Positions 1,023 through 38,470 of a DNA stretch of 64,000 nucleotides are shown here, in pieces. Each line of letters opens with the position of its first letter. The stretch's first letter is position 1. The notes beneath the pieces were generated by a model that was not told the origin of the DNA, did no database searches, and worked only from the letters and a program-made list of their open reading frames with translations. A program made the position numbers and the translations under genes. This DNA comes from Flavihumibacter petaseus NBRC 106054 (GTDB lineage Bacteria > Bacteroidota > Bacteroidia > Chitinophagales > Chitinophagaceae), in the NCBI RefSeq assembly GCF_000974785.1, contig NZ_BBWV01000001.1, positions 930,001-994,000 on the forward strand. The letters are read 5' to 3'.

Positions 1023-2966
1023 CTATCTGATATACTCCTTTTTTATTCCCAGTTTCTTCATTCTTGATTGCAATGTCTGAGGAGGAATGTTTAGAATCTC
1101 TGCTGCAGCTCCGGCGCCCCATATCCTGCCATTGCATTTGCGCAGAACGGACAAAATATGGTCCCGCTCATTTTCCTGGATCGTCTTTATTCGCAAAACT
1201 TCGTCACTATTACCATTTTCCTTCTTATCAATTTTTGGCAAAGGAAGATCCTGGATTATGTGACCTTTGGCCAGCAATACTCCCCGTTCAATCAGGTGTT
1301 CAAGTTCCCTTATGTTTCCCGGCCAATCATAACTATTCATACTGCTCAAAACCTTATCAGAAATTCCGCTTACTTTCAAACCTGCCTTCTGACTATAGAC
1401 ATTTATAAAGAATTGACATAATGCCGGTATATCTTCCTTACGATCACGAAGCGCAGGTAAACAAATTGGAAAAACGTTTAAGCGATAATATAAATCCAGC
1501 CGGAATCTTCCTTCCGCAACTTCTTTTTCCAAATTCCTGTTTGTCGCAGCGATAATACGTACATCAACTTTAATGGTATCTTTTCCACCAATCCTTTCAA
1601 TTTCCTTCTCCTGCAGTACTCTCAACAATTTTACCTGCAACTCCAGCGGCATTTCCCCAATCTCATCCAGGAAAATAGTTCCACCGTCTGCCTTCTCAAA
1701 TTTCCCGATCCTTTTCTCATGTGCTCCGGTAAATGCTCCTTTTTCATGACCGAATAACTCAGATTCTATCAATGTTGCAGGTAAAGCTGCGCAATTAATT
1801 TTGACAAAAGGCTTTCCTTTTCTTGAAGATGAATTATGAATGCAATCAGCGATCCTTTCTTTACCGGTTCCGCTCTCACCCAATAATAATACAGACGTAT
1901 TCTGTTTGGCGATCTGCGCTACCAGGTCCATCACACTCAATAATGCCGGACTTGTTCCAATGATACCGTCAAATCCAAAATCAGTTGAATGTTGCATCTC
2001 ATTCACCGCAATAAACGGCTCATTTTGCTTCAATACAACTCTCCTGTCTTCTTCATGAATACTATTGAATACGCCAATTAATGGCTCATGAAGGTGTAAA
2101 AACCAATCAAGCTGCTCAGCGTTAAAGCCATCCGGCACCCGCCGGAAAAAACTAAGTGAAAAACTAAAACCGTCCGATGATTCAAAAGGAATGACCAGAT
2201 TCGACTGGAAATCAAATGTCTTTGCGAGTAATTGCTTAATCGGGTGCGATACAGATAGTTTTTCAAATTGATCGCCGGTGTAACATCCCGGTGTTTCGTC
2301 AGCCGACGAGCTCGCAAGCAGGTCCTTAAGCTTACCTGGCGACATTCCTGATATAGTTGATAGTTCGGTAAGACCTATTGCCTGGTATTCATCATAACCA
2401 ATCCGCAAAAAAGCAAAGCCATTAAAACTATCTTCTTTAAATACTTTCAATTTTATAGCAAGGCAATCAAATGCCAAATACACCTGGAGCACTTTGGCCA
2501 TATTTAAAAGCTTTCCCTTCCAACCGCCCTTTTCCTTACTGAGTACTTCCAATTTTCTCTTAAGATCCTTTTCCCGTCGTAACCTGGATTCAAGACTTTG
2601 TTCATAACGGTATCGGGCAATCTCCAGCATGACAAAGAGGTCTCTCTCACGAAATGGTTTAACCAGAAATCCATATGGTTGTGTCTCTTTTGCTGCATTT
2701 AACACCTCTTCATTTGAATTGGCTGATAAGTAAACAAATGGAATATTGTTCTCTGCCAGATTTCTGGCAAGATCAATTCCGGTTTGTTTGCCCTTTAGAA
2801 AAATATCGAGCAAAACAAACCCCGGTCGTTCCTCCTTTATCAATTCCTTTGCTTCAGGCACAGAACGGGCAATACCTGATACCGTATAGCCCTTTTTCTC
2901 CAGCATCAAGCTGAGATAATCCGCTTCGACAAACTGATCTTCCACGATCAATATTCTTTCTTTCAT
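1023..2966 (-). CDS. sigma-54-dependent response regulator (NtrC class, REC-GAF-AAA-Fis)
   Basis: A 647-residue bacterial enhancer-binding protein. Residues 4-118 are a receiver domain with phosphoacceptor Asp54 (VLLD) and the conserved Lys103 (LVKPF). Residues 145-310 look like a GAF-type sensory linker. Residues 335-570 are the sigma-54 interaction AAA+ domain with Walker A GESGTGKE (363-370), the sigma-54-contacting loop GAFTGA (410-415) and Walker B IFLDEIGE. A Fis-type helix-turn-helix closes the protein (GAAAEILNIPPQTLQSRM). With all motifs intact it should activate sigma-54 promoters after phosphorylation. Its start overlaps the end of the sensor-kinase gene by 4 bp (ATGA), so the two are a cotranscribed pair. 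The nearest candidate target is the divergent operon starting at 5364, which has a -24/-12 promoter. Confidence 0.95.
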   Translation of the reverse strand: MKERILIVEDQFVEADYLSLMLEKKGYTVSGIARSVPEAKELIKEERPGFVLLDIFLKGKQTGIDLARNLAENNIPFVYLSANSNEEVLNAAKETQPYGFLVKPFRERDLFVMLEIARYRYEQSLESRLRREKDLKRKLEVLSKEKGGWKGKLLNMAKVLQVYLAFDCLAIKLKVFKEDSFNGFAFLRIGYDEYQAIGLTELSTISGMSPGKLKDLLASSSADETPGCYTGDQFEKLSVSHPIKQLLAKTFDFQSNLVIPFESSDGFSFSLSFFRRVPDGFNAEQLDWFLHLHEPLIGVFNSIHEEDRRVVLKQNEPFIAVNEMQHSTDFGFDGIIGTSPALLSVMDLVAQIAKQNTSVLLLGESGTGKERIADCIHNSSSRKGKPFVKINCAALPATLIESELFGHEKGAFTGAHEKRIGKFEKADGGTIFLDEIGEMPLELQVKLLRVLQEKEIERIGGKDTIKVDVRIIAATNRNLEKEVAEGRFRLDLYYRLNVFPICLPALRDRKEDIPALCQFFINVYSQKAGLKVSGISDKVLSSMNSYDWPGNIRELEHLIERGVLLAKGHIIQDLPLPKIDKKENGNSDEVLRIKTIQENERDHILSVLRKCNGRIWGAGAAAEILNIPPQTLQSRMKKLGIKKEYIR

Positions 2967-5152
2967 GAAGCAATAATTGAAAAGTTAATGGCTATTTCCG
3001 TCCCGTTGTTACGCTGAATCGAAAAGCCTCCATCTATGTCGTCGCTAAGCCCTTTCATTAATCTAAGACCCATGGATTGTTGGCTGGCAATGTTGAAATG
3101 ATCCGGCAAGCCAACGCCATTGTCATGGATCACCAGTCTGAAATACTTTTCATCTACCTCTTTTAATGAAATATGAATAACACCCTCCCTATTTTCCGGA
3201 AAAGCATACTTGATTGAATTGGTAACGGCCTCACTTATAATCAATCCAATAGGAACACAGTAGGTAAGATTTAACATTACCGGGTCAACATCTACAACAA
3301 AATAAACTGACTTCCTGAGGTTAAAGCTATCCCGCAGGTAACTGACTAATTCATGAATATAATCAGGCATATTAATTGCCGACAGATCCTCTGACTGATA
3401 CAATTTTTGATGGATCAGTGACATTGCCTGCACACGATGCTTGCTTTCTTCTACTGCTTTTATCGCTTCATCTGACTCAAGGTATCGTGATTGTGTTCCC
3501 AATAAACCCATCACCATATGAAAATTATTCTTCACCCTATGATGAATTTCCCTGACAAGCCATTCCTTTTCCCGGACCAAATGTTCAAGGGCGGCATTTT
3601 TCTTTTCAATTTCCTGTTGCTGGATGAATAACTTCCTATTTGCCTTTTGCTTAAGGATGGACTTGTTTATTAACAAAGCAATAATGATCAGGAGCAGGGC
3701 TGCAAGGCCAAGCTGAATCTTCTTATCTTTTTCCAGAAGTTGAATACTTTGATCTTTCTTATCAGTCTCATACTTAATAAGTAATTCATGCACCTCTTTG
3801 TCTTTTGCAACGGTGAAAATAGAGTCATTAAGGGCTTTATACAATTGAAAATGCCTGATCGCAGCAGGATAATTTCCATCGGCCGAGTCAACTTTAAACA
3901 ACAGGTAATTTAAATCCATGATTCGTGTCGCCGATGTTGTGGTCATCAGGCCAGATGCTTTTAATAAATAAGGCTTTGCCTTCTTGAATTCATTTAGCTT
4001 AACATAAAACTTTCCAATATCATAATCAGCAATCATAATAGTTTCTATATTCCTGTCTCCACGATCAAATTCGCTTATCATGCCCAGAAAATATTTTTCT
4101 GCCATGGGATAATCCCCCATTGCATCATAACAATATGCGAAACTTTGAAATAAACTACCTTTCTCGTCGGCATGAACGGGTGGTTTCAATTTTGTAAGGT
4201 TATTCAATAACCCGATTGCCTGCCTCGCTTCCTTCGCCTTTATCATTTGAATGGTTAAGAGATAGGCCGTGAAATAAGTAAATCGCTCCGATGCAATCTT
4301 AGATCTGATCTCTAAACATTTCTTATACCAGTAAATGCTCTGTTCCGGCATATTCAGTTCCTCATACACCAGGGCCAGTTCTCCATAGCAATTGGCAAGC
4401 GATTTTGTTTCCTTTGACTGCTCAGAATTTTTGACGGCTTCCAATGAGTATTTCAGCGCCTGGTCAAACCTGCCACCATACCTGTTTGCTGAAGACAGGA
4501 ACAAATAAATCTCTGGCAACCGGTACAGTTCATTTCCTTTTGCATCTGCCAGGGCAATCAGAAATATGCTGTCTGCAGTAATGAATTGGTTTTTATGAAA
4601 ATACAAATTGCCCAGCTGCATTGTCGCATCGATCTTTCTCTGCATATTTCCCATCTCGGAGTAAAGCAGTAAAGCCTTTCTGAACCCATTTTCTATCGTA
4701 TCCTGATACACATCATAAAAGAGAAGATAATCTCCTTCCTGCATACGGACATCAGCTTCCCGACCTTTGTTTCCCGTTCTTTGATAGGAATTGATCACCT
4801 GGGACAATATTTTTATCCCGGTTTCAAAATTTCTTTTCCGTATATACGCCATCCCGAGAAGCACAAGACTTTGATTATTAATCTCACTGTTGTAAGTGTT
4901 GGCTGAATCGCCTAAATAAACCGCCTTCCGCAAATAAAATAATGAACTGTCAATAAGTTCATCTTCCCTCCAGGATTGAAGAATATAAGTATACCCTAAC
5001 TGGTTATAATAATACTGTCGACTGCTATCTGGTATTCTTTTACTTAAAGCTGCATAAAGTTGAAATTTGGAAAGCGTGCCAGGTTCCTGCGCGAAACAGG
5101 TGTTCAGGCAAAAAACTAAAAACAAAATGAGTTTCGGTTTCAATTTCCACAT
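2963..5152 (-). CDS. TPR-containing sensor histidine kinase (HisKA_2 type)
   Basis: A 729-residue kinase with an N-terminal signal peptide (through CFAQ, about residue 22), an extracytoplasmic array of degenerate tetratricopeptide repeats (about 30-440), one membrane helix near 475-495 (LAALLLIIIALLI), a coiled coil, a HisKA_2 dimerisation domain around the phosphoacceptor motif REIHHRVKNN, and a C-terminal HATPase with N box (EAVTNSIKYAF) and G box (DNGVGLP). It should phosphorylate the response regulator encoded 4 bp downstream. TPR-type sensors of this layout are frequent in Bacteroidota; the ligand is unknown. The 210-base space to the divergent hydrolase gene contains the inverted repeats and sigma-54-like promoter listed separately. 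Confidence 0.93.
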   Translation of the reverse strand: MWKLKPKLILFLVFCLNTCFAQEPGTLSKFQLYAALSKRIPDSSRQYYYNQLGYTYILQSWREDELIDSSLFYLRKAVYLGDSANTYNSEINNQSLVLLGMAYIRKRNFETGIKILSQVINSYQRTGNKGREADVRMQEGDYLLFYDVYQDTIENGFRKALLLYSEMGNMQRKIDATMQLGNLYFHKNQFITADSIFLIALADAKGNELYRLPEIYLFLSSANRYGGRFDQALKYSLEAVKNSEQSKETKSLANCYGELALVYEELNMPEQSIYWYKKCLEIRSKIASERFTYFTAYLLTIQMIKAKEARQAIGLLNNLTKLKPPVHADEKGSLFQSFAYCYDAMGDYPMAEKYFLGMISEFDRGDRNIETIMIADYDIGKFYVKLNEFKKAKPYLLKASGLMTTTSATRIMDLNYLLFKVDSADGNYPAAIRHFQLYKALNDSIFTVAKDKEVHELLIKYETDKKDQSIQLLEKDKKIQLGLAALLLIIIALLINKSILKQKANRKLFIQQQEIEKKNAALEHLVREKEWLVREIHHRVKNNFHMVMGLLGTQSRYLESDEAIKAVEESKHRVQAMSLIHQKLYQSEDLSAINMPDYIHELVSYLRDSFNLRKSVYFVVDVDPVMLNLTYCVPIGLIISEAVTNSIKYAFPENREGVIHISLKEVDEKYFRLVIHDNGVGLPDHFNIASQQSMGLRLMKGLSDDIDGGFSIQRNNGTEIAINFSIIAS

Positions 5153-5223
5153 AGCCCTGTAAATCTACAACCCTTTGAACAAGCTGTTCGGCTTTTGAAT
5201 ACAAAATATTGACAGAAACTCCT

Positions 5224-5269
5224 CACCGATATTTCGTGTTTTATAGCCTCTTCCACCGAAATATCGGTG
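5224..5269. promoter_or_regulatory. paired inverted-repeat site, probable enhancer (UAS) for the sigma-54 regulator
   Basis: CACCGATATTTCG (5224-5236) is repeated exactly in inverted orientation as CGAAATATCGGTG (5257-5269), with a 20-base spacer. Each arm contains an imperfect palindrome (CGATATTTCG, 8 of 10 positions self-complementary). The arm centres are 30 bp apart, about three helical turns, and lie about 118 and 88 bp upstream of the predicted start of the sigma-54 promoter at 5324. Enhancer-binding proteins of the NtrC class typically bind such paired sites at such distances. The site sits between the regulator-kinase operon and the hydrolase operon. Binding by the adjacent regulator is inferred. 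Confidence 0.6.
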
Positions 5270-5323
5270 CGGGCCGATTGCTCCAAAAAGCTCCTTCAAT
5301 TGATAAACAATCACTTCGGCTTG

Positions 5324-5339
5324 TGGCACCCTTGTTGAC
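5324..5339 (+). promoter_or_regulatory. sigma-54 (-24/-12) promoter candidate
   Basis: TGGCAC (5324-5329), 5 bases, then TTGAC (5335-5339). The GG and the -12 dinucleotide are exactly 10 bases apart as required for sigma-54 promoters. The only departure is GA in place of GC at -12. The start of transcription would fall near 5350, 14 bases before the ATG at 5364. Confidence 0.55.
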
Positions 5340-5363
5340 AAACTGTTGCAAACACCTTTGCAA

Positions 5364-6164
5364 ATGGGACATCATCAATCAAAAACAATATTGTTTATCA
5401 CGGGGGCTTTTGTTCACCACAGTTGCTGGGACGACTGGTGCACTTTTTTCCAGGGTAAAGGGTATAAAACTTTTGCTCCTGCATGGCCTTATAAAGACGA
5501 TACAGCCGAAGCACTTCGAAAAAGTCATCCAAACAGCGCCATAGCTTCCAACAGGCTACACATGCTAACGAAGTATTTTGCCACGTTTGCAAAGCAATTA
5601 CCGGAAAAGCCAATTTTGATAGGGCATTCGATCGGAGGTCTTCTCGTACAACTTCTATTGCAAGAGGGATTGGGCGCATTGGGAATAGCTATCCATTCGG
5701 TCCCGCCACAAGGGATAATGACTTTCAAATTTTCATTTATTAAAGCCGGCTGGGGGCCTTTGGGCTTTTTTACTTCCACCAAAAAATCATTCCTGCATTC
5801 TTTCAGCCAATGGAAATATGCGTTCACCAATGGAATGACGGCTGAAGAACAAAAAAATTCCTATTACCAATATACCATACCGGAATCCAAACTGATCGTC
5901 CGGGATACCATCACGAAAGCGGCCAAAATAAATTTTGAGAATCCACATGCCCCACTGCTATTCATCTCTGGCAGCAATGATCATACGATACCTGCATCAC
6001 TCAACTACGCAAACTTCAGGAAATACAGGAAAAGCAACTCAACAACCGATTACCAGGAGTTTGCTGGTCACACTCATTTTGTTTTAGGCCAGCCAGACTG
6101 GAAGAAAACTGCTGAATTTGTTTTCGAATGGATCAAAAAACAATATAACGGCAGTACTATTTAA
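5364..6164 (+). CDS. alpha/beta hydrolase (lysophospholipase/serine-esterase-like)
   Basis: A 266-residue cytosolic alpha/beta hydrolase. The nucleophile elbow is GHSIGG with Ser89, the acid is the Asp of GSNDHTIP (about 205) and the base is the His of AGHTHFVLG (about 235), so the triad is complete. The start is placed at ATG 5364. A TTG at 5346 in frame would lie at or before the predicted sigma-54 transcription start, so it is unlikely. It is the first gene of a three-gene run (23 and 45 bp gaps) divergent from the sensor kinase. Substrate unknown. Control by the neighbouring sigma-54 regulator is inferred from the promoter layout. Confidence 0.88.
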   Translation: MGHHQSKTILFITGAFVHHSCWDDWCTFFQGKGYKTFAPAWPYKDDTAEALRKSHPNSAIASNRLHMLTKYFATFAKQLPEKPILIGHSIGGLLVQLLLQEGLGALGIAIHSVPPQGIMTFKFSFIKAGWGPLGFFTSTKKSFLHSFSQWKYAFTNGMTAEEQKNSYYQYTIPESKLIVRDTITKAAKINFENPHAPLLFISGSNDHTIPASLNYANFRKYRKSNSTTDYQEFAGHTHFVLGQPDWKKTAEFVFEWIKKQYNGSTI

Positions 6165-6187: not shown

Positions 6188-7180
6188 ATGAAACAACCCA
6201 AAGATTTGCTCCATTTTTTACTTTTAGCAATTCTGACCACCTGCCTGATTGGTTCCAGTAGTTGCAATAATCCTGATAATGATGGCAAACCAAATTCAGC
6301 CACAACAGGCACAAAAGACAGCACTATTAGCCAACCTGCCGCACCTCCGGCAAACTTTAAACATCAGACTGCCACGATAAATGGTATAAACATTCACTAC
6401 GTAATAGGTGGTGAAGGTGAGCCGCTGTTACTGATTCATGGCTTCGGACAAAACTGGTACATGTGGAACCGTATCCTTCCGGAGCTGTCGAAGCACTTTA
6501 CGGTTATTGCACCAGATTTGCCGGGACTTGGGGAAAGTGATAAACCGGACACGGGCTATACAAAAAAACAACTGGCAAACAATCTGCATAGCCTGATGCA
6601 GCAGCTTGGTTTCAGGAGTGAGTATGTTGTGGGACACGACATTGGCTTAATGGTAGCTTATGCTTTTGCTGCACAATTCGGTGAGGAAGTAAAAAAAGTT
6701 GCTTTGCTGGACGCTTTGCTCCCTGGCGTAGAACCTGTCTGGAGTCAGGTGCATGCACAGGCATGGTGGTTTGGGTTTTTCGGATGGCCAGCCTCCGGTG
6801 ATATTGTTGCCGGCAAGGAGAAAGAATTTCTCACCAATTTCTGGCCGGTAGTGGGTCACAAGAATGATGCCTTCACCAAAGCTGAAGTTGATGAATTTGT
6901 AAGAGCTTATTCCATACCAAAATCAACCTATGGCGCTTTTCACTGGTTTGCAGCATTTAACCAGGATGCCTCAGACAACCAGGAATTCATAAAACATAAA
7001 CTAAAAATGCCATTACTGGCAATGGCTGGTGAGTATGCCAGCAACTTTTTGCCTGATCATTGCAAACTGGTTGCTGAGCAGGTAACGGGATCCATCATTA
7101 AAGGTGCGGGGCACTGGATCGTGCAGGAAAATACCGAACAGGTACAGCATGATCTGCTGTCGTTCCTTCTTTCCAAATAA
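6188..7180 (+). CDS. exported alpha/beta hydrolase, epoxide hydrolase-like lipoprotein
   Basis: 330 residues. The N-terminus is a lipoprotein signal with the modified cysteine at residue 26 (GSSSC), followed by a Ser/Thr/Pro-rich linker to about 60. The hydrolase fold then begins with the oxyanion motif HGFGQ (84-88). The nucleophile elbow is GHDIG with Asp151 where esterases have Ser, the mark of epoxide hydrolases and haloalkane dehalogenases. A late His (GAGHWIVQE) supplies the base. It therefore probably opens epoxides or removes halides outside the inner membrane; the substrate is not predictable. It is the second gene of the run starting at 5364. Confidence 0.88.
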   Translation: MKQPKDLLHFLLLAILTTCLIGSSSCNNPDNDGKPNSATTGTKDSTISQPAAPPANFKHQTATINGINIHYVIGGEGEPLLLIHGFGQNWYMWNRILPELSKHFTVIAPDLPGLGESDKPDTGYTKKQLANNLHSLMQQLGFRSEYVVGHDIGLMVAYAFAAQFGEEVKKVALLDALLPGVEPVWSQVHAQAWWFGFFGWPASGDIVAGKEKEFLTNFWPVVGHKNDAFTKAEVDEFVRAYSIPKSTYGAFHWFAAFNQDASDNQEFIKHKLKMPLLAMAGEYASNFLPDHCKLVAEQVTGSIIKGAGHWIVQENTEQVQHDLLSFLLSK

Positions 7181-7225: not shown

Positions 7226-7735
7226 ATGAAAACAATATTCCAATATTTCAAACTGACCGCCGCCATTTTTTTGGCTTGCTCAATACATGTAAATGCACAA
7301 TCCGGTAGCGGACAACTGCGAATAACACAGCAGGAGATCATTAATACAAAATCAACTGGCGCATTGGCGCCAGGTTCTTCCAACTTAAGTGCAGTACAGG
7401 TCATTGTAATTTACGGTGACCCTTCAAAAGCCGGTCTATATACTATTCTATTGAAAGTAGCAGCCAATACCAAAATCCCTGCACATCTACATCCGGACGA
7501 CAGAGTGGGAACTGTTGTTTCAGGAACCTGGTACTTTGGGTATGGTGATAAATTTGATGAAAGCAAATTGAAAAAACTGCCTGTGGGAAGTGTCTATTCG
7601 GAGAATCCGGATCAAAATCATTTTGCCATGACGAAGAAGGAGCCGGTTATTGTTGAGATAACCGGTTATGGTCCTTCAGGTGTAACGTATGTAAACCCGT
7701 CAGATGATCCGGCAACTAAAAACAATAAGCGGTAG
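7226..7735 (+). CDS. secreted cupin-domain protein
   Basis: 169 residues with a cleavable signal peptide ending near HVNAQ (residue 25). The rest is a single small cupin barrel: the metal-binding pattern HLHPDD appears near residue 90, a GTWYFGYGD strand follows, and a later NHF supplies a third histidine. Such proteins bind a metal and act as isomerases, dioxygenases or detoxifying enzymes; the reaction here cannot be named. It follows the exported hydrolase by 45 bp and is probably the last gene of the sigma-54-linked operon. Confidence 0.85.
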   Translation: MKTIFQYFKLTAAIFLACSIHVNAQSGSGQLRITQQEIINTKSTGALAPGSSNLSAVQVIVIYGDPSKAGLYTILLKVAANTKIPAHLHPDDRVGTVVSGTWYFGYGDKFDESKLKKLPVGSVYSENPDQNHFAMTKKEPVIVEITGYGPSGVTYVNPSDDPATKNNKR

Positions 7736-8638: not shown

Positions 8639-8953
8639 CTAAACTACTTGAAGCAATGTCCCGATGCCAGTAACCATCACCATCGGGCGTATCAATGGTT
8701 CCAATGGTTGAACAGATTTGTAATATTCCGTATCCAGAACATCCATTTTATCAGCTAATACTTCCCAGTTATCCTGGTACTCACCTGAATATACAAAATC
8801 ATAAAATCTGTCCGCCGTATAATTATCCGGATTAACAAATGAAAGCCGCCACGAAGTCCAGTCAGATATTTCAGATGGCGTGTCATTTTGAACAGAGGTT
8901 TTGTAAACATAATCTATCAATTCCTCGTTTGTCAATTGCTTTATGTCAATCAT
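8639..8953 (-). CDS. hypothetical protein, 104 aa
   Basis: A cytosolic, acidic, aromatic-rich protein without signal or membrane segment (it begins MIDIKQLTNEELIDYVYK). Not recognised. Its size, charge and position in a run of unrelated minus-strand genes would fit an immunity or adaptor protein, but nothing in the sequence proves that. Confidence 0.6.
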   Translation of the reverse strand: MIDIKQLTNEELIDYVYKTSVQNDTPSEISDWTSWRLSFVNPDNYTADRFYDFVYSGEYQDNWEVLADKMDVLDTEYYKSVQPLEPLIRPMVMVTGIGTLLQVV

Positions 8954-8990: not shown

Positions 8991-9728
8991 TTAATAACTC
9001 TGAATTTCGGCATTTGCTGTCAATTTCATAATCATGACAGCAATGACAGAAAACAACACCAGCAAAATCCACCACATACTTCTTTTAGTTTTATTGTCAA
9101 TATTTTTGTTGCTGCGTATTTCTAACAAACTCCAAATCATCAAAGAAACAAATGTTGTACCTGCCAATGCCACGACAATCTTATTATTGACCGTATAAAC
9201 ACAAAGCATGAGTCCGACGGTTAATAGTCCGGTCAATCCTTGATACTTCTGAATAAATGAAACTGTATGCTGAGTCGATATCTGTTGAATGGCCTGTAAT
9301 GATGTTTCAAGCTGTGAGTAATTGTCAATCTGAACCGGAATCACAATTAGTTCTCTGGCATCCTTTCCCCTGATTGTATAACCTCCATTTTTATGCTTGA
9401 CTATTTCCTTTATGTCAGCAAAATAAATAGAGATTGTGGGAGTATTTAGCTGTTCTCTTGTAACCAGGTTGTCTGTAATTTTTAACGTATAACTTTCAAA
9501 TAATTCTTTTTGTCGATTTACACCCCGGTACATCCCCCAGCCCAACATCAGAATAATAAAGGGAACCACAACTGGCCAAATATTCATGTCTGAAGGTGCA
9601 GTTGTCGTATTGATTGTGCCAATAACGATGCCAACTATCGCTGCAATAAGCATAAAAGGAATTGCCCGAAATAGTAACAGCTTTCTGACCTCCTTAAACC
9701 CGTCTTGTTTGATTGTGAATACTTGCAT
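8991..9728 (-). CDS. hypothetical membrane protein with PH-like middle domain
   Basis: 245 residues: two N-terminal helices (about 20-38 and 48-65), a soluble beta-rich middle (about 70-160, including ITDNLVTREQL), and two or three more helices from about 165 to 240. The helix-helix-beta-domain-helix order resembles bacterial PH-like membrane proteins. No family name can be given. Spacing to the DUF1003 gene upstream is 18 bp, so they are probably in one operon. Confidence 0.65.
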   Translation of the reverse strand: MQVFTIKQDGFKEVRKLLLFRAIPFMLIAAIVGIVIGTINTTTAPSDMNIWPVVVPFIILMLGWGMYRGVNRQKELFESYTLKITDNLVTREQLNTPTISIYFADIKEIVKHKNGGYTIRGKDARELIVIPVQIDNYSQLETSLQAIQQISTQHTVSFIQKYQGLTGLLTVGLMLCVYTVNNKIVVALAGTTFVSLMIWSLLEIRSNKNIDNKTKRSMWWILLVLFSVIAVMIMKLTANAEIQSY

Positions 9729-38424: not shown

Positions 38425-38470
38425 AAGTGAAAGAAAATCAGTTTTAAAGTTTTCTTTCACTTTTCTTTTA
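38425..38470 (+). terminator. intrinsic terminator of the 67-aa gene
   Basis: AAGTGAAAGAAAA (38425-38437) and TTTTCTTTCACTT (38450-38462) form a perfect 13-bp stem with a 12-base loop, followed by TTCTTTTA. The stem is AT-rich but long. Confidence 0.7.

Follow-up and report, generated by a model that had tools for sequence, protein, structure and literature searches.

The region in which two divergent operons meet (5153-5363) in the genome of Flavihumibacter petaseus NBRC 106054 is very probably a complete, dedicated sigma-54 switch, through which a TPR sensor kinase and its adjoining regulator would command an operon of two alpha/beta hydrolases and a small cupin. The window, meaning the whole stretch of 64,000 nucleotides that was analysed, corresponds to bases 930001-994000 of contig 22 in a genome of 5.69 Mb, and carries the following features, some of them defined by a comparison of 35 loci that is described below.

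1023-2966, minus strand: REG, regulator with a response-regulator receiver, a variable middle domain, an AAA+ sigma-54 activator domain and a Fis-type HTH (Pfam Response_reg, Sigma54_activat, HTH_8; GAFTGA)
2963-5152, minus strand: KIN, sensor kinase with TPR repeats, a hydrophobic stretch (by eye) and HisKA_2/HATPase (Pfam TPR_12, HisKA_2, HATPase_c)
5223-5240, strandless: predicted regulator site 1, the distal dyad TCACCGATATTTCGTGTT, centred at about -118 from the predicted start
5253-5270, strandless: predicted regulator site 2, the proximal dyad CCACCGAAATATCGGTGC, centred at about -88 from the predicted start
5293-5317, strandless: IHF/HU-like element, YAAN4YTGATW (5293-5305) plus a partly symmetric WATCARN4TTR (5305-5317) (conserved columns at 35 loci; consensus fit)
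5324-5329, plus strand: -24 element TGGCAC (sequence read; 35-locus comparison)
5335-5339, plus strand: -12 element TTGAC, with GA in place of GC (sequence read; 35-locus comparison)
5350, plus strand: predicted transcription start, placed from the position of the -12 element
5364-6164, plus strand: HYD1, alpha/beta hydrolase, gene 1 of the controlled operon (Pfam Abhydrolase_6; orthologs)
6188-7180, plus strand: HYD2, alpha/beta hydrolase whose start resembles that of a lipoprotein (by eye); its matches to models for haloalkane dehalogenase and enol-lactonase fall below their cut-offs
7226-7735, plus strand: CUP, small cupin whose start resembles a signal peptide (by eye); Cupin_7 at E 4e-4, below its cut-off

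In the proposed mechanism, the membrane TPR kinase would sense a signal and phosphorylate the adjoining REC-AAA+-Fis regulator, dimers of which, bound to one face of the helix at the two dyads (about -118 and -88), would form an active AAA+ ring. An IHF/HU-family protein would bend the DNA at a conserved element near -45, which would bring the ring to the RNA polymerase-sigma54 complex at TGGCAC-N5-TTGAC. ATP hydrolysis would then open the promoter, yielding a HYD1-HYD2-cupin transcript from about 5350. Binding, phosphotransfer, bending, the start site and the direction of control (activation) are the parts of this scheme that we infer.

Gene calls and Pfam matches bear out the preliminary description of this DNA, which had placed the sites between an NtrC-class regulator operon and a hydrolase operon. 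KIN is the first and REG the second gene of their operon, and the two overlap by 4 bp at 2963-2966. REG has the hallmarks of a bEBP response regulator, namely a phospho-acceptor Asp in the receiver, an AAA+ domain with GAFTGA and a Fis-type HTH, and its D54 and K103 are invariant in nine aligned homologs. It does not qualify as an NtrC equivalog, scoring 342.3 bits against a cut-off of 558.6 for NCBIfam TIGR01818. HYD2 likewise stays below the cut-off of every NCBIfam model among the matches listed, the best being haloalkane dehalogenase with 102.3 against 241 bits.

NtrC-class regulators bind paired sites about three helical turns apart, at roughly -80 to -150. In the window, direct reading of the sequence shows the arm CACCGATATTTCG from 5224 onwards and, from 5257, CGAAATATCGGTG, which is its exact reverse complement. 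The two mirror-image sites with cores 30 bp apart that had been reported are thus present; the units are two 18-bp dyads with centres 30 bp apart, and the 13-base arms make up the left side of the first and the right side of the second. The right half of dyad 1 is imperfect. The dyad centres lie about 88 and 118 bp before the predicted start, which is where activator sites had been expected, and these positions are conserved. A search of the whole genome for the two-arm motif, which had been suggested as a check, finds the paired motif (up to three mismatches, fixed spacing) only at this locus, and CACCGAWATWTCGGTG has a zero-mismatch match at one place. A search for single sites with up to three mismatches was rejected as a regulon predictor, being too loose (84 matches per strand against 51 for a reversed-pattern control). 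Exact 13-mer inverted repeats spanning no more than 75 bp occur twice in the window, one of them being the dyad arms; the other lies at 38425-38462 (AAGTGAAAGAAAA).

The sigma-54 consensus is GG-N10-GC, in which the GC is normally near-invariant. The element TGGCAC-N5-TTGAC (5324-5339) stands 64 bp beyond the dyads, and the ATG of HYD1 at 5364 follows the start of the -24 by 40 bp, similarly to many orthologs. The exact GG-N10 spacing ascribed to it holds for the G of the -12 box, but the dinucleotide is GA and the usual GC is absent. As a stand-alone predictor, TGGCACN5TTGCW was rejected, for it shows no excess over chance in the window (34 matches with up to two mismatches against 40.6 expected). 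The promoter match by itself is at chance level, and its support comes from its conserved position.

To follow this position across genomes, loci were gathered from 119 relatives, from 394 genomes of the family and from a scan of named genomes (26 loci, 20 of them analysed). With the best three candidates scored per genome, at least 46 of the 394 family genomes are positive, at no fewer than 78 places. The 10 lowest-scoring of the family-genome places were left out, and the final set holds 90 oriented loci, window included. HYD1 lies divergent from the kinase within 1.5 kb at 37 of these 90, and removal of two duplicates leaves 35 loci, which were thus picked by gene layout. The two-site architecture, its spacings, the promoter element, the association with the operon and the presence of rpoN and HU/IHF-family genes emerge from this comparison of sequences.

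Two dyads 29-32 bp apart with a GG-N10-G 63-66 bp from the second are found at 35 of 35 loci in a scan restricted to spacings of 29-32 bp and distances of 60-68 bp, so both sites recur in the orthologous regions, the comparison that the preliminary description had called for. In the same restricted scan the spacing is exactly 30 bp at 25 loci and the GG distance 63-64 bp at 32, and the score exceeds all 200 shuffles at 33 loci (shuffled fraction 0.01 at L175 and 0.005 at L178). In a free scan, with spacings of 16-48 bp allowed and no promoter term used, 26 of the 35 loci have their best pair at 29-32 bp and the other nine at a different spacing; when each locus is shuffled once, 2 of the 35 have it at 29-32 bp. 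Where a pair spaced by 28-33 bp is present, 26 of 27 promoter-pattern matches located 30-150 bp past site 2 lie at 63-66 bp. Furthermore, a stricter scan of the first 70 loci of all kinds gives 17 positives, compared with a mean of 0.225 and a maximum of 1 in 40 shuffles. Information content reaches 1.9 bits within the sites and averages 0.15-0.17 bits in the flanks. The 35 loci share ancestry, with L173/L174, L182/L183 and L185/L187 as close pairs in the tree, and the counts therefore demonstrate conservation and not independent events.

The same loci define an off-consensus promoter, TGGCAY-N5-TTGRY. The GG, the T at position 12 and the G at position 14 were set by the search pattern and are present at 35 of 35 by construction. 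In the context of the -24, GGCA occurs at 27 loci and TGGCA at 18, the window having TGGCAC, and the TTG of the -12 box occurs at 27. The C position of the -12 box is G at 20 loci, A at 8, T at 5 and C at 2 (L132 and L165); because 33 of the 35, the window among them, are without the C of the -12 GC, a canonical TGGCAC-N5-TTGCW search would be expected to miss or under-score these promoters. The start of the -24 precedes the called HYD1 start by 27-49 bp at 31 loci, by 16 bp at L130 and by 10 bp at L181. At L164 and L132 the promoter call falls inside the called hydrolase ORF, by 90 bp and 1 bp, so either the ORF start or the promoter element may be wrong there.

A sigma factor for such promoters is encoded throughout the sample. 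At least one rpoN is present in all 119 genomes searched, own genome included, which settles a doubt raised in the preliminary description, and the own genome has two (PF04552). More than one PF04552 match is present in 26 of the 119 genomes; in G118 the two are fragments. The second rpoN of the own genome (G000:C22:1740354-1740827, at L002) has an ARRTVAKYR box and adjoins an activator gene with GSFTGA. That a second rpoN causes the odd -12 was rejected, since the same module occurs at L064 in G021, a genome with a single rpoN.

Between sites and promoter lies a conserved element that had been overlooked when the control region was first delineated, although the sites and the promoter named at that time are borne out. 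When the 35 regions are aligned on the promoter, with positions relative to the first base of the -24 hexamer, conserved columns comprise AA at -30/-29 (30/35 and 26/35), YTGA at -24 to -21, A at -15 (35/35) and TTA at -9 to -7. The E. coli IHF consensus is WATCARN4TTR (PMC3897727, cited in part), and YAAN4YTGATW is its reverse. The fit to this consensus averages 7.34 of 9 over the 35 loci at one fixed offset, compared with a median of 3.54 over offsets from -52 to -9, and the best match in the spacer, in either direction, is 8 of 9 or better in 83% of loci but only 14% of shuffles. The right-hand columns, read in the opposite direction, have a mean of 6.17 at -19, with a close second of 6.0 at -34, which gives the element a partly symmetric look, centred on -19. 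Each half agrees in the window at 7 of 9 informative positions, and the AA is absent. Two HU/IHF-family genes are present in the own genome, and the conserved element is a probable bend site.

The sites could instead be autoregulatory operators of the divergent kinase-regulator operon, with effects on the hydrolases being secondary. With the kinase start codon 71-118 bp downstream of them in the divergent layout, they could serve both genes, but their distance to the hydrolase-side promoter is held at 63-66 bp in all 35 loci, which makes this account unlikely. Loci with another gene order argue in the same direction. At L188, from another family (Chryseolinea lacunae, Fulvivirgaceae), the regulator is followed by the hydrolase operon, and sites and promoter are found between the two and not before the kinase: REG ends at 8920, the dyads start at 8945 and 8976, TGGCAC is at 9045 and HYD1 at 9084. 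Since the sites stand in front of the hydrolase operon here too, they belong to the target operon. At the paralogous loci L068, L070, L118 and L159, likewise, the regulator is separated from the next operon by sites and promoter. The earlier proposal that the TPR kinase and its regulator switch on the hydrolase operon is supported in that sites and promoter face this operon, at L188 as well, activation itself being the presumed direction.

A house-keeping TAnnTTTG promoter driving the operon, with a repressor bound to the dyads, is a far less probable account. The only plus-strand match with at most one mismatch in 5140-5400 is CACCTTTG at 5353-5360, one mismatch from TAnnTTTG; it is not prominent in the 35-locus profile and would presumably place the transcript start at codon 1 or within it. 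No conserved TAnnTTTG block appears in that profile up to 44 bp past the -24, so the alternative promoter that the preliminary description had named as a counter-indication does not recur across the 35 loci, whereas GG-N10-G and the paired sites do, beside a GAFTGA activator. The least probable reading of the arms is as an RNA hairpin, terminator or attenuator, to which a perfect inverted repeat of 13 bp around a loop of 20 bases would be suited; yet they lie upstream of the predicted hydrolase transcript start, sites in orthologs are often palindromic individually, and a 30-bp centre spacing fits the helical phasing of DNA and not a single stem. The dedicated sigma-54 switch is the reading that we adopt.

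HYD2 is found within five called ORFs downstream at 30 of 35 loci and the cupin at 16, while the ortholog at L064 has in addition a third alpha/beta hydrolase and an isochorismatase-type hydrolase. At two paralogous modules (L068 and L071), genes for further alpha/beta hydrolases and a cupin stand nearby, as do those for an antibiotic-biosynthesis-monooxygenase-type protein and a DUF1348/SnoaL-like protein. That the operon serves catabolism or detoxification is a guess. HYD1 homologs (33-50% identical) also occur next to or near sigma-54 activators of other architectures in the own genome (G000:C20:888677/891269 at L081 and G000:C20:38650/42095 at L082) and in related genomes (L077, L079 and L080 among these loci).

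At least three full-length regulators of this kind are encoded in the own genome, and paralogous KIN-REG pairs have their own, differing dyads nearby. Dyad sequences vary with the recognition-helix motif, which is TLQS in REG: TTCACGAATAACCGTGAA goes with TLEY, CTCC/CCCC types with TLES/TLEA, ACCRYGA with TLKS and CACCGA with TLQS. More broadly, TLE-type regulators covary with CTCC/CCCC half sites (TLEY with TTCAC) and TLK-type with ACC(R). The covariation is loose in the non-E group, where L146 and L147 have TLAS yet ACC/GCT-type sites, and the window is the sole one of the 35 with TLQS and CACCGA sites (n=1). That each regulator reads its own adjoining site is a lead only, because residue and site both follow the tree.

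A paralog scan, run as a match search free of shuffle control, gives a match at 31 of the 53 loci outside the 35, the register sometimes being shifted, for example by odd-centred dyads. The distance from the second dyad to the promoter is 74 bp in L068 and L070; among TLE-type paralogs scoring at least 21 in the paralog scan, it is 99-136 bp in 16 of 17 and 61 bp in the remaining one. For L117, L120 and L126, a TGGCA taken as the -24 was rejected, as it overlaps the -12 box; alignment places the true -24, RGGCAT, 12 bp earlier. The distances of 75-76 bp at these three loci are withdrawn, and a helical distance series of 64/75/86/118 is not claimed because the -24 of this subclade had been misplaced. 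Of the 12 non-E regulators without a divergent HYD1 in the tree, four have the module (L121, L160, L139 and L188) and L066 has the dyads alone; in these scans a convincing module was not found at the other seven (L124, L149, L151, L153, L154, L162 and L170), at some of which the sequence stretch perhaps ends early or the target lies elsewhere. In L067 (10640-10770, plus strand) a CCGAATTTTTCGG dyad and a TGGCATGCTAATAGG element are seen by eye before a divergent gene of 239 aa, besides the region downstream of the regulator, and one system may there drive two operons. L065 (G021:C24) is a decaying KIN-REG copy with both reading frames broken.

The distribution of the locus is patchy. Within the genus (14 genomes, two of them less than 80% complete), full-length regulator matches peak at 53% (G008), and in G014 the match covers the AAA+ part only (E <= 1e-100); among named relatives, matches reach 65% in Chitinophaga ginsengisoli and C. 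rupis. The locus may have moved. A single clean clade for the HYD1 neighbourhood was rejected: the 34 HYD1 rows in the tree need eight label changes, and the operon has therefore been gained, lost or moved.

A broader proposition, to which we give slightly less than even credence, is that Chitinophagaceae and at least one other family of Bacteroidota have multiplied such pairs of TPR kinase and sigma-54 activator. Each pair would be insulated by its own dyad via the variable TLxS residue, and each would command an adjoining hydrolase/cupin-type operon through a fixed module of enhancer, partly symmetric IHF-like site and promoter, with the -12 of the hydrolase module shifted from TTGCW to TTGRY. 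In any case, one conserved sigma-54 module at 35 loci, together with paralogous modules with different operators, constitutes a testable family. This set is useful for studying how the -12 is read by sigma-54 in Bacteroidota, how a Fis-type helix chooses its site and which operons stand under these kinases. The off-consensus -12, the IHF-like element and the multiplied modules are the points meriting specialist attention.

To our knowledge, few sigma-54 switches have been described in Bacteroidota, and no description of this system was found among the titles and abstracts listed in searches of open literature, subscription journals lying outside this coverage. NtrC-type enhancers are paired upstream sites of sigma-54 promoters, as in the glnA layout. 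The present switch resembles them in its two dyads about three helical turns apart upstream of a -24/-12 promoter and in its REC-AAA+-Fis regulator with GAFTGA, whereas REG scores below the NtrC equivalog cut-off, has a long middle domain and a TPR HisKA_2 partner, and has a hydrolase operon as its target. Sigma-54 regulons of Bacteroidota classes have been predicted with class-specific matrices (PMC12316311, cited in part); the strings 'chitinophag' and 'UAS' do not occur in the main text of that paper, and, as far as this part of it extends, what its regulons and this switch have in common is the sigma factor and the phylum. In Desulfovibrio vulgaris, orp2 has a palindromic activator site at -88, an IHF site at -43 and a sigma-54 box at -11 (PMC3897727, cited in part). 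Compared with that portion of the account, the layout predicted here (-88, about -45 and -12) is nearly identical, while regulator and target are different, each promoter has two dyads, the -12 is without GC and the role of IHF is putative. The switch is therefore of a known, ordinary kind, of which it is a newly described and well-conserved member.
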